Shown here piece after piece: positions 1,704 through 6,335 of a DNA stretch of 6,335 nt. Source of the DNA: an uncultured Ruminococcus sp. (lineage in GTDB: Bacteria; Bacillota; Clostridia; Oscillospirales; Ruminococcaceae); the NCBI GenBank assembly GCA_900553335.1, contig USCU01000072.1, positions 1 to 6,335 on the forward strand, in the 5' to 3' direction. Below the pieces are notes generated by a model, which was not told where the DNA came from, did no database searches, and saw only the letters and a program-made list of their open reading frames with translations. The position numbers were made by a program, and so were the translations under genes. Numbering within the stretch: position 1 is the first letter of the stretch; each line of letters starts with the position of its first letter.

Positions 1704-3116
1704 TTATTTGTTGAGAAACTTTTGGATCTGTTTGTTGATAGTTTCAACCTCCGCATCTACAGCTCCGGAAAATTTTTCTTTACTTTGAGTCCATGTATAC
1801 GAAACACCTTGCTCATCAAGAACAGAGGTTGACTTATACAGCCAGTTTGCAAGACAAACTCCTGACATAAATCCGCTGAAGTCATCTCCCATCAGAGATG
1901 ATATTCCATAAGCAGGATCAAACAAAAGCAAAACCTTATCAGGATTTGAAATGTCAGACATTAGATCAAAATCCTCTTCCGTCCATGTAGGGCTTGCTGC
2001 CATAGCCTTTTGTCGTCCTAACTTTTGATATTCAGGATCTGTTTGTGCCATTTTGTAGCACTCATAAAAAGCTCTTACGGCGTCTGTCTTTTCAGAACCT
2101 GTAACCCACATATACGAAGTGATTGTAGCAGAAGTAATCGGCTTATCTCCCTCGTAATTAGGATCTTTCGGGAACGGTACCATTCCCCACTCGCCCTGAA
2201 CATCAGGTCCGCTCGTACCCATTGCAGCCCATGTTCCCATTGAATAGAACAAAATGTTCTTTTCAAACGCTGAGGCAGCCGAACCTATCCAGTTTTGTTC
2301 AACATATCCCTGCTTCTGCCAATCATAAAGTCTTTCCATAATGGAAGCAATCTTAGGGCTGTCAAGGTTTGACTCGTATGTAATATTATCATCAGTCTTT
2401 ACAAGAGTTTCTCCCGTCTGAGCTACAATCTGCGGAGCATACCAGCCGTTTATTCCGTATCTCTCCGTATCTCCCTCAGCGCCCTTGCACCAATCACTCA
2501 TCATATCTTCCATAGCATCATAATCCCACTGATCTTCATAATAAAGATCCAAAGGATCGTCAAGTCCATTTTCTTCAAATACATTTTTATCGTAAAACAG
2601 CATTGCGGTAAGTCCATACTCAAGAGGAGCTACATAATGCTTACCGTCAAGTACAAATTGATCCGCGGTATCCTTTACTCCGCTCCACAAAGGTGTGTCA
2701 AAGTCGATAATTTCATCAAGCGGCTGATAAAATCCCTGAACAACCTGGCAAGGGAAAGCTAAGGTGTTGTATGTAAACAGATCAGGAGCGTCTTTTCCTG
2801 AAGTAACCGCAGCCGCAAGCTTTGTATACTGATTCGATGAGGTTACTCTTGTCCATTCTATTTTTCCGCCTTTATCCTCAAACAGCGATAATCCGACCGT
2901 TCTGTCGTCGTCATTTGTCGGATTAAGATCATAAAGTCCCATATAAGTGAGTGTTGTTTCCTCACCGTCTGCGATTGGTTTAATGTCATCTGTTGATACA
3001 ACAGGCATTGAATCCCTTCTAGATGACTCGCTGTCCCCGTTATCCGTACAACCGGCAAAAGCAAAAGTCATTACAATCGCAAGACTTCCTGCAATAATTC
3101 TTTTGATTTGTTTCAT
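1704..3116 (-). CDS. SBP-2: extracellular solute-binding lipoprotein (carbohydrate ABC importer type)
   Basis: A 470-residue paralogue of SBP-1 with the same predicted role as an importer receptor on the cell surface. The signal peptide (K2, K5, R6, hydrophobic core) ends in lipobox FAGC with C23. The linker TDNGDSESSRRDS follows. Conserved blocks VTSGKD, QGFYQP, KHYVAP, QTGET, FYECY, LMGDD and YTWTQ are all present and the frame is intact. It differs from SBP-1 in segments likely to line the cleft: LEYGLTAMLFY instead of IEYYPSSYVFY, and NGWYAPQIVAQTGET instead of NGFYAPQYVQQTGET. This suggests a different ligand preference, which is inference. The start is fixed by GAGGAGG ending 5 nt before ATG. 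Unlike SBP-3 and SBP-4 it has no convincing terminator, so some transcripts may run into SBP-1. Confidence 0.9.
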   Translation of the reverse strand: MKQIKRIIAGSLAIVMTFAFAGCTDNGDSESSRRDSMPVVSTDDIKPIADGEETTLTYMGLYDLNPTNDDDRTVGLSLFEDKGGKIEWTRVTSSNQYTKLAAAVTSGKDAPDLFTYNTLAFPCQVVQGFYQPLDEIIDFDTPLWSGVKDTADQFVLDGKHYVAPLEYGLTAMLFYDKNVFEENGLDDPLDLYYEDQWDYDAMEDMMSDWCKGAEGDTERYGINGWYAPQIVAQTGETLVKTDDNITYESNLDSPKIASIMERLYDWQKQGYVEQNWIGSAASAFEKNILFYSMGTWAAMGTSGPDVQGEWGMVPFPKDPNYEGDKPITSATITSYMWVTGSEKTDAVRAFYECYKMAQTDPEYQKLGRQKAMAASPTWTEEDFDLMSDISNPDKVLLLFDPAYGISSLMGDDFSGFMSGVCLANWLYKSTSVLDEQGVSYTWTQSKEKFSGAVDAEVETINKQIQKFLNK

Positions 3117-3320: not shown

Positions 3321-3350
3321 AAAAAGAGCATCGCAAAACTGCGATGCTCT
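3321..3350 (-). terminator. rho-independent terminator of SBP-3
   Basis: A perfect 11-bp stem (3325-3335 with 3340-3350) with a 4-nt loop begins 19 nt past the SBP-3 stop. On the minus strand it runs into a T-tract (3321-3325). On the plus strand A residues lie before the hairpin and after it, so it works as a terminator mainly on the minus strand. It separates SBP-3 from SBP-2. Confidence 0.92.
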
Positions 3351-3369: not shown

Positions 3370-4794
3370 TTATTTAGCAAGGAACTTCTGGATAGATTGG
3401 TTAAGTGTCTTTACTTCGCTTTCAACCTGTCCTGAGAATTTTTCCTTAATCTGTGTCCATGTGAAGGTTTCACCCTGTTCGTTAGGAGCAGATGTTGACT
3501 TATAAATATAGTTAGTCAGTGAAACACCTGCCATAAATCCGCTGCTGTCATCACCCATAAGAGTTGATACACCGTATGATGGATCAAAAATCATAAGGTT
3601 CTTATCAGGATCGGATGCATCCCTGATAATTTGATATGCTTCCTCGCCCCAGTTAGGATTGTTTGTCATCCATTTTTCCTTCAAAGTATCCTGATAAGCT
3701 GTATCTGTCTGAGCAGCTCTGTAGCATTCATAGAAAACCTGAACAGCGTCCTTTTTGTCAGAACCCTTTACCCAAAGAACAGAGTCATCTGACATCTTAG
3801 CAGAAGCAATAGGCTTATCTCCTTCATATGTCGGATCGCTTGGGAATGGCACTACGCCCCAGTCGTCTGACTCAGTAGGTGTATGAGTATCAATTGCTGC
3901 CCACTCGCCCATTGCATAGAAAAGAAGATTCTTTTCAAATGCAGTCGTAGCGTCGCCGATCCAATCGTATATAACATATCCCTGCTTAAGCCAATCAGCA
4001 AGTCTTTCCTCAGCTGCTGCAATCTTCGGGTTGTCAAGGTTAGAATAATATGTAACATTATCGTCTGTCTTTACAAGAGTTTCACCGGTTTGCTGAACGT
4101 AAGAAGGAGCATAGTATCCGTTGATTCCAAATCTTTCTTCATCACCTGAAGCACCCTTGCAGTATTCGCTCATCAAATCATCAAGTGCATCATAATCCCA
4201 AGAACCCTCATAATAAAGATCGAGAGGATCATCAAGTCCGTTATCAGTTATAGCCTTTCTGTTATAGAAAAGCAGAGAAAGCGGAGCATAGCTAAACGGT
4301 GCAACATAGTGCTTTCCATCAATTGAGAACTGATCTGCTGTATCTTTGATGCCGGACCACATTGGCGCATCAAAATCAATTATATCGTCAAGCGGCTGAT
4401 AGAAGCCCTGAATAACCTGAGATGGAACAGCCAAAGCTGAATAATTAAATAAGTCCGGAACATCCTTACCCGAAGTTACGGCAGCACCAAGCTTCGTATA
4501 CTGGTTAGACGCAGTAACTCTCGACCACTTTATAGATCCGCCCTTATCCTCAAACAAAGTAAGTCCTACAGACTTTTCTCCCTTAGGTGTCGGGTTAAGA
4601 TCGCCGATTCCCATGTAAATAAGCTCTGTTTCTGCGCCGTCCGGAATGCTTTTAATATTTTTAGCTTCAGCAACAGCAACCTTATCTTTTCTTGAAGAAT
4701 CGTCGCCGTTGGATTCGCCTTTGGTACAAGCTGTAAATGCAAAAGTCATTGCAACAGCCATACATCCTGCGAGCAATCTTTTAAGATTTTTCAT
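3370..4794 (-). CDS. SBP-3: extracellular solute-binding lipoprotein (carbohydrate ABC importer type)
   Basis: A 474-residue paralogue in the same family. I chose the ATG at 4794 (protein MKNLKRLLAG...) rather than the in-frame ATG at 4812. The upstream choice would place the ribosome site AAGGAGG (4801-4807) inside the coding region and add MIRRIL, whereas the chosen start matches the N-termini of SBP-1 and SBP-2 and puts the lipid cysteine at residue 23 in all three. The lipobox is FTAC, followed by a Ser/Asp/Lys linker. All shared blocks are present, but FPCQV is replaced by VPSQV, and GTSGP/GSGGP by DTHTP just after MGEWAAI, near the presumed cleft. The N-terminal part is closest to SBP-4 (about 70% identity by hand over ~138 residues). 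It ends in a double stop, TAATAA. It has its own promoter and terminator, so it is probably monocistronic. Confidence 0.9.
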   Translation of the reverse strand: MKNLKRLLAGCMAVAMTFAFTACTKGESNGDDSSRKDKVAVAEAKNIKSIPDGAETELIYMGIGDLNPTPKGEKSVGLTLFEDKGGSIKWSRVTASNQYTKLGAAVTSGKDVPDLFNYSALAVPSQVIQGFYQPLDDIIDFDAPMWSGIKDTADQFSIDGKHYVAPFSYAPLSLLFYNRKAITDNGLDDPLDLYYEGSWDYDALDDLMSEYCKGASGDEERFGINGYYAPSYVQQTGETLVKTDDNVTYYSNLDNPKIAAAEERLADWLKQGYVIYDWIGDATTAFEKNLLFYAMGEWAAIDTHTPTESDDWGVVPFPSDPTYEGDKPIASAKMSDDSVLWVKGSDKKDAVQVFYECYRAAQTDTAYQDTLKEKWMTNNPNWGEEAYQIIRDASDPDKNLMIFDPSYGVSTLMGDDSSGFMAGVSLTNYIYKSTSAPNEQGETFTWTQIKEKFSGQVESEVKTLNQSIQKFLAK

Positions 4795-4800
4795 TAAAAT

Positions 4801-4807
4801 CCTCCTT
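4801..4807 (-). promoter_or_regulatory. ribosome binding site that fixes the SBP-3 start
   Basis: AAGGAGG on the minus strand lies 6 nt before the ATG at 4794. It makes the upstream in-frame ATG at 4812 unlikely as a start, since no such motif precedes that codon at a useful distance. Confidence 0.9.
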
Positions 4808-4826
4808 ATCATAATTTTATGTACAC

Positions 4827-4960: not shown

Positions 4961-4998
4961 GAAAAGATCGGACGAGTTTTAATCACTTCGTCCGATCT
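4961..4998 (-). terminator. rho-independent terminator of SBP-4
   Basis: A perfect 11-bp stem (4965-4975 with 4988-4998) closes a 12-nt loop, starting 12 nt after the SBP-4 stop. On the minus strand it is followed by TTTCCTTTTTCTTTCC. It isolates SBP-4 from the SBP-3 promoter region. Confidence 0.88.
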
Positions 4999-5010: not shown

Positions 5011-6287
5011 TTATTTTGCAAGGAATTTTGTTATCTGAGAGTTTATTTTTTCAAGCTCGCTGTCAACAGTTCCTGTATATTTCTCCCTAAGCTGCGTCCA
5101 TGTGTATTCGATTCCCTGCTCATCAGGCTTTGTACAGCCATTATATAGCCAGCCAGTAAGATTTACACCGCTCATGAAGCCTCCGAAATCATCACCCATA
5201 AGAGATGAAACACCGTACGAAGGATCAAAAATCATAAGATTTTCATTCGGATCAGCAACCGATCTGATAACATCATAATCCTCCTCTGTCCAATTCGGAT
5301 TATCCGCCAGCCATTTTTCTTTAGTATTCTGAACATATTTAGAATCCGTTACAGCAACTCTGTAGCACTCATAAAAGGTTTTGACAGCATCCTTCTTCTC
5401 AGAGCCTATTACCCACATATATGCTGTCATGTCAGCTGTAGTAATCGGTTTATCGCCGTCATATGAAGTATCCCTTGGGAATGGCACTACGCCCCATTCG
5501 TCAGAGCTTCCCGGTCCTGATGTTCCTGTTGCTGCCCACTCGCCCATAGCATAGAACAAAATGTTCTTCTCAAAAGCGGAAGACGCACTTGATATCCAGT
5601 CAGGCTGAACATAACCGTTTTTCTTCCAGCTTGAAAGTCTTTCTTCTGCCTTTGCAATTTTCGGATCAGAAAGATTGTTGGTAAACGTTATATTGTCATC
5701 CGTCTTAACCATTGTTTCTCCTGTCTGCTGAACAATCTGCAATGCGAAATATCCGTTTATTCCGAATCTCTGATCATCTCCGTCAGAGCTCTTGCACCAT
5801 TCATTCATAATATCTTCTAAAGCGTCAACCGTCCATTCGCCGTTGTAATATAGCTCCAGAGGATCGTCAAAACCGTTATCAATTATGTTTTTCTTGTTAT
5901 AAAAAAGCAATGACGAAGGATTATAGCTTATAGGCGCAACATAATATTTTCCGTCAAGTGTGTATTGATCAGCAGTAGATTTTACGTCAGTCCACATAGG
6001 CTCATCAAAATCTACAACATCGTTTATCGGCTGGTAAAAACCCTGTACAACCTGACACGGAAAAGCGAGCCACTCGTATTTGAATATATCCGGAACGTCT
6101 TTTCCCGATGTAACAGCAGCGCCAAGCTTTGTAAATTTATTCGATGCAGTTACTCTTGACCACTTAATAGATCCTCCCTTATCCTCAAACAGACTGAGTC
6201 CAACGCTCTTTTCGTTTGCAGCAGTTGGATTAAGGTCAGCATCACCCATAAACAAAAGCTCGGTTTCAGCTCCGTCAGGGATATCGC
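5011..6287 (-). CDS. SBP-4: extracellular solute-binding lipoprotein, 5' end missing
   Basis: A fourth paralogue of which 424 residues are visible. The reading frame does not begin at the TTG at 6255. It continues upstream through DIPDGAETEL, matching the SIPDGAETEL of SBP-3, until the genomic sequence stops at 6287. By alignment about 48 residues are missing: the signal peptide, the lipobox cysteine and the polar linker. The visible part carries all family blocks (VTSGKD, QGFYQP, QTGET, FYECY, LMGDD, YTWTQ) and is intact to its TAA. Distinct pocket-region residues include MGDADLNP near the N-terminus and NGYFALQIVQQTGET in the middle. The truncation is a sequencing or assembly edge with adapter sequence, not a biological break. 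Its role is presumed the same as that of its neighbours, with the ligand unknown. Its promoter lies outside the window. Confidence 0.9.
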
Positions 6288-6335
6288 CTGTCTCTTATAC
6301 ACATCTGACGCTGCCGACGATCTACTCTGTGTAGA
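6288..6335. other. Illumina Nextera adapter, index and P5 remnant (non-genomic)
   Basis: CTGTCTCTTATACACATCT (6288-6306) is the reverse complement of the 19-bp Tn5 mosaic end used in Nextera libraries. GACGCTGCCGACGA (6307-6320) completes the Read 1 adapter. TCTACTCT (6321-6328) is the reverse complement of the i5 index AGAGTAGA (N/S504 from memory). GTGTAGA (6329-6335) starts the P5 arm. The four parts are in exact library order, so this is untrimmed read-through adapter. It should be removed from the contig. Confidence 0.98.

Follow-up and report, generated by a model that had tools for sequence, protein, structure and literature searches.

The window, by which we mean the whole 6,335-nucleotide stretch of DNA analysed here, carries four minus-strand ORFs, all four of which are placed by Pfam with bacterial solute-binding proteins, and closes with a 48-base tail on the plus strand that is identical, without a single mismatch, to a Nextera adapter with barcode 504 (Table 1). 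The four ORFs form a tandem array of paralogues that share 61–65% mutual identity, and there is no permease gene within the window. None of the four proteins was assigned to an NCBIfam family at E 0.001, and phmmer returned no solved structure for gene 3 at E 0.001. The tail begins where gene 4 breaks off and runs to position 6335, the final base of the window.

Table 1. Coordinates, strand and supporting evidence for the features of the window
Feature	Position	Strand	Evidence
Gene 1, tandem paralogous solute-binding protein	163–1584	−	Pfam
Gene 2, tandem paralogous solute-binding protein	1704–3116	−	Pfam
Gene 3, tandem paralogous solute-binding protein	3370–4812	−	Pfam
Gene 4, tandem paralogous solute-binding protein, 5′ end cut by adapter	5011–6287	−	Pfam; comparison with P0001
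Tn5 mosaic end, CTGTCTCTTATACACATCT	6288–6306	+	19/19 bases; printed in PMC3347997 and PMC6460022
Reverse complement of Nextera Read 1 tail, GACGCTGCCGACGA	6307–6320	+	14/14 bases; PMC6460022; i5 primers of PMC8225968 (3′ part)
i5 index in read-through orientation, TCTACTCT, the reverse complement of AGAGTAGA (504)	6321–6328	+	Index tables in PMC4712552 and PMC8225968
GTGTAGA, first 7 bases of the P5 reverse complement	6329–6335	+	i5 primers of PMC8225968 (P5 part)

The Contig Tail Consists of Consecutive Adapter Segments

The search pattern for the adapter comprised 40 fixed bases and 8 free bases that stand for the index: mosaic end, Read 1 tail, eight free bases and GTGTAGA. This pattern has one match in the window, at 6288–6335 (+), and occurs in none of 200 dinucleotide-preserving shuffles of the window. 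Mosaic end and Read 1 tail together (6288–6320) are exact over 33 of 33 bases. When the mosaic end alone is sought with up to three mismatches, the sole match in the window is again that at 6288, and such a looser match turns up in 1 of the 200 shuffles. Positions 6307–6335 are identical to the opening 29 bases of Nextera i5 primer 504, as printed in PMC8225968, once that primer is reverse-complemented; index 504 is given as AGAGTAGA in PMC4712552. The mosaic end, both by itself and followed by the Read 1 tail, also appears among the custom read-cleaning and trimming parameters printed in PMC6460022. The initial annotation had described the final 48 bases as the mosaic end, the Read 1 tail, an 8-base i5 index and the start of P5; the order, the coordinates and the absence of mismatches are all confirmed, and its identification of the index as 504 agrees with the printed tables (PMC4712552, PMC8225968).

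The first 19 bases of the tail are a recognition end of the Tn5 transposase, as would be expected if a natural Tn5/IS50 end had inserted into the gene. However, the mosaic end is a chimera of the outside and inside ends that was optimised for in vitro applications. The natural form of the outside end, CTGACTCTTATACACAAGT, printed in the same source, differs from it at three positions (PMC3347997). The window has the exact chimeric form and not a natural outside or inside end. Moreover, the mosaic end is followed by the Read 1 tail, the index and P5 instead of transposon DNA, which refutes a natural Tn5/IS50 insertion, and the mosaic end is present in none of the three genomes of relatives searched (G001–G003). 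The view that the mosaic end could be mistaken for a Tn5-type insertion, and that the index and P5 bases speak against one, is therefore upheld, and we consider a natural insertion extremely improbable. Still less probable is a synthetic mosaic-end cassette that was truly present in the cell, whether through laboratory Tn5 mutagenesis or in an engineered strain. Mosaic ends are in use for EZ-Tn5-type mutagenesis, but there is no reason why a cassette of this kind should include an i5 index and P5. In addition, the nearest loci found, three of three, come from metagenome-assembled genomes (MAGs), so that the source is probably uncultured, and gene 4 is whole on another contig.

The Adapter Truncates a Gene That Is Intact Elsewhere

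The nearest named relative is a locus (L001) in a MAG from an uncultured Clostridia bacterium, in which gene 4 is 79% identical. The longest DNA alignment with this locus stops at 6285, and a second one reaches 6286. Among some 5.8 billion proteins searched is one of 474 residues, P0001, that is identical to the gene 4 fragment at 424 of 424 residues and whose cluster comprises 2 contigs, the longer of 43,885 bases. P0001 stems from another contig, not necessarily from another sample, and thus the gene broken by the tail is intact elsewhere. It has 50 further N-terminal residues, which by eye have the look of a lipoprotein signal and linker. Since the gene 4 fragment lacks these 50 residues, the TTG at 6255, listed as its start among the ORFs, is not where gene 4 really begins. 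Translation of the tail in the gene 4 frame gives YTE*IVGSVRCV*ETG, interrupted by a TAG and a TAA stop, where P0001 has SVKEETVKVVSTDDIG. The contrary case named by the initial annotation, an independent assembly in which the 48 bases continue into genomic DNA, was examined at the protein level, and there P0001 continues gene 4 free of adapter. The intact neighbour, gene 3, is identical from Met7 onward to P0011, a protein whose cluster comprises 23 contigs, the longest of 210,991 bases.

The residues of P0001 that precede the break are Ile49–Gly50, and their codons permit C and T at 6288–6289 (GGC for Gly, ATA for Ile) and not G at 6290. Because the codons allowed for these two residues fit C and T, bases 6288–6289 are possibly genomic, judging from the protein sequence. 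The join could thus be placed at 6287/6288, although as many as two bases beyond it, 6288 and 6289, may be common to genome and adapter, and within that ambiguity the earlier statement that genomic sequence stops at 6287 holds.

Two false frames arise from the tail: an ORF of 84 amino acids at 6080–6334 (+), which ends in PVSYTHLTLPTIYSV, and an open frame of 61 amino acids at 6150–6335 (−), which starts with STQSRSSAASDVYKRQ. Frames of this type, which span adapter and genome, could enter protein databases. Adapter-derived peptides may be widespread in metagenome protein sets; a literature search for two such peptides, which was dominated by primer-listing papers and says little, found no occurrence among the 20 listed of 2,605 papers.

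The Solute-Binding Protein Array

Apart from the tail, the four tandem paralogues are a separate, modest observation. L001 contains all four, each paired one-to-one by tree with its counterpart in the window (7 of 7 inner branches starred); the duplications are therefore older than the split. The order of the array has changed since, being g4, g3, g2, g1 in the window and g2, g4, g3, g1 in L001. In L001 (4373–14205) the four-gene array lies between RNase H and class-V aminotransferase genes on one side and methyltransferase and cytidylyltransferase-like genes on the other, and a further locus, L002 (5632–9263), has a single, more distant copy next to an RNase H and class-V aminotransferase pair. 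None of the 10 matches to the permease family PF00528 in G001, the genome of L001, falls on the array contig, C5, and the same genome has a fifth homologue at C1:28248–29657. It is possible that an orphan receptor locus has grown from one to four copies. Because the paralogues are old, tandem and without a permease at the RNase H/class-V aminotransferase site, and single-copy in a distant relative, we tentatively propose that the cell may swap separately retained receptors of differing specificity onto one transporter encoded elsewhere, a proposal that we regard as rather doubtful.

Terminator-like hairpins are found after gene 1 (116–145) and gene 3 (3325–3350), with 7 such sites in the window versus 3.6 in shuffles, and an inverted repeat, AGATCGGACGA...TCGTCCGATCT, was noted by eye after gene 4 (4965–4998). 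On sequence grounds, these hairpins and the inverted repeat suggest possible separate transcription of array members.

The Same Tails in Other Sequence Collections

When IMG/VR was scanned for the 48-base pattern, at least 125 matches came up on at least 120 contigs from at least 34 datasets. Among the matches listed, all 125 lie no more than 72 bases from a contig end. Of these, 8 reach the final base of the contig and 109 fall within 22 bases of the end, the length of P5 that remains after the pattern. After the index, 124 of the 125 matches listed follow P5 either to the contig end or over its full 29 bases, the exception being L031, and 16 continue beyond P5. Ten different indices occur among the matches listed, all of them in a table of 18 codes; the index of 19 matches is presumably code 517 and that of one code 522. 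For 105 of the 125 matches listed, the index code is printed in PMC8225968.

Within a given dataset the index does not vary. Among the matches listed, it is constant in every one of the 19 datasets that have two or more matches. These 19 are not all independent, since adjacently numbered datasets may be related; when the index labels were shuffled 2000 times, a mean of 1.6 and a maximum of 6 of the 19 datasets had a single index. The index therefore tracks the library and not the adjoining sequence or organism, as adapters do. Constancy of the index per dataset thus provides a simple test of adapter versus genome that needs no raw reads.

Around G001, 396 genomes were searched for the 33-base adapter, and two contained it: G264 once and G337 135 times. 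In G264 the adapter lies 8 bases from a contig end and has the index TAGTAACG, which is absent from the table of 18 codes. In G337, the 9 of 135 loci that were read lie 7–15 bases from a contig end (contigs C2, C5, C7, C14 and others), and all 9 have one index, TACTCCTT, of which one locus has just the first 7 of 8 bases.

Whole or partial matches to the 48 bases were found in 9 of 72,556 plasmid records and in 26 of 50,697 phage records, 20 of these 26 being listed. In some finished records the adapter is internal (for example H1, H4, H14 and H15); an adapter can therefore also end up inside an assembly, and an end position alone is not proof of adapter origin. No match occurs in any of 20,395 E. 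coli records. This result and the empty shuffles both weigh against a genuine genomic stretch that merely resembles the adapter by chance, in favour of which no points were found. Chance resemblance is refuted by the constant index per IMG/VR dataset, among the matches listed, together with the other continuation of gene 4 in P0001, and it is the least probable of the explanations we considered.

Discussion

Collectively, these analyses leave it virtually certain that positions 6288–6335 represent the i5-side Nextera adapter with index 504 in reverse complement, most likely acquired through Read 2 read-through that was left untrimmed and then assembled. The letters are identical to those of the adapter, gene 4 breaks at that point and the same protein continues normally on another contig, all of which is seen directly; no evidence against an adapter origin was found in this window. 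In the Nextera layout, a Read 2 that extends past a short insert meets, in order, the insert, the mosaic end, the Read 1 tail, i5 and P5. Read 2 is the probable source because this is the order of the segments here. From that order, the library insert would have been short, with the read exceeding its length by 48 bases or more, so that Read 2 ran past it into the adapter. The adapter part of the read would then have escaped trimming and been assembled into the contig, and the assembler may have been halted there by low coverage or by adapter words that branch to many contigs.

The contig tail is thus an ordinary, well-known laboratory artefact and not biology, and there is nothing new left in the 48 bases. 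It matters little, and only as data hygiene, in that a gene has been truncated and false frames have been created.

All 48 bases are identical to the i5-side Illumina Nextera adapter (primer 504) as reached by Read 2 read-through. The Nextera P5 has 29 bases, of which the window carries only 7 because it stops there. Adapter-tailed public contigs in IMG/VR have the same contig-end structure as the window. The record of Escherichia phage ESSI2_ev129 (LR597640.1) includes all 48 bases, index 504 among them, at 30879–30926 of 30927. Other public records differ from the window in their indices and in the length of P5 that they retain, and the match is internal in a few finished records of plasmids and phages.
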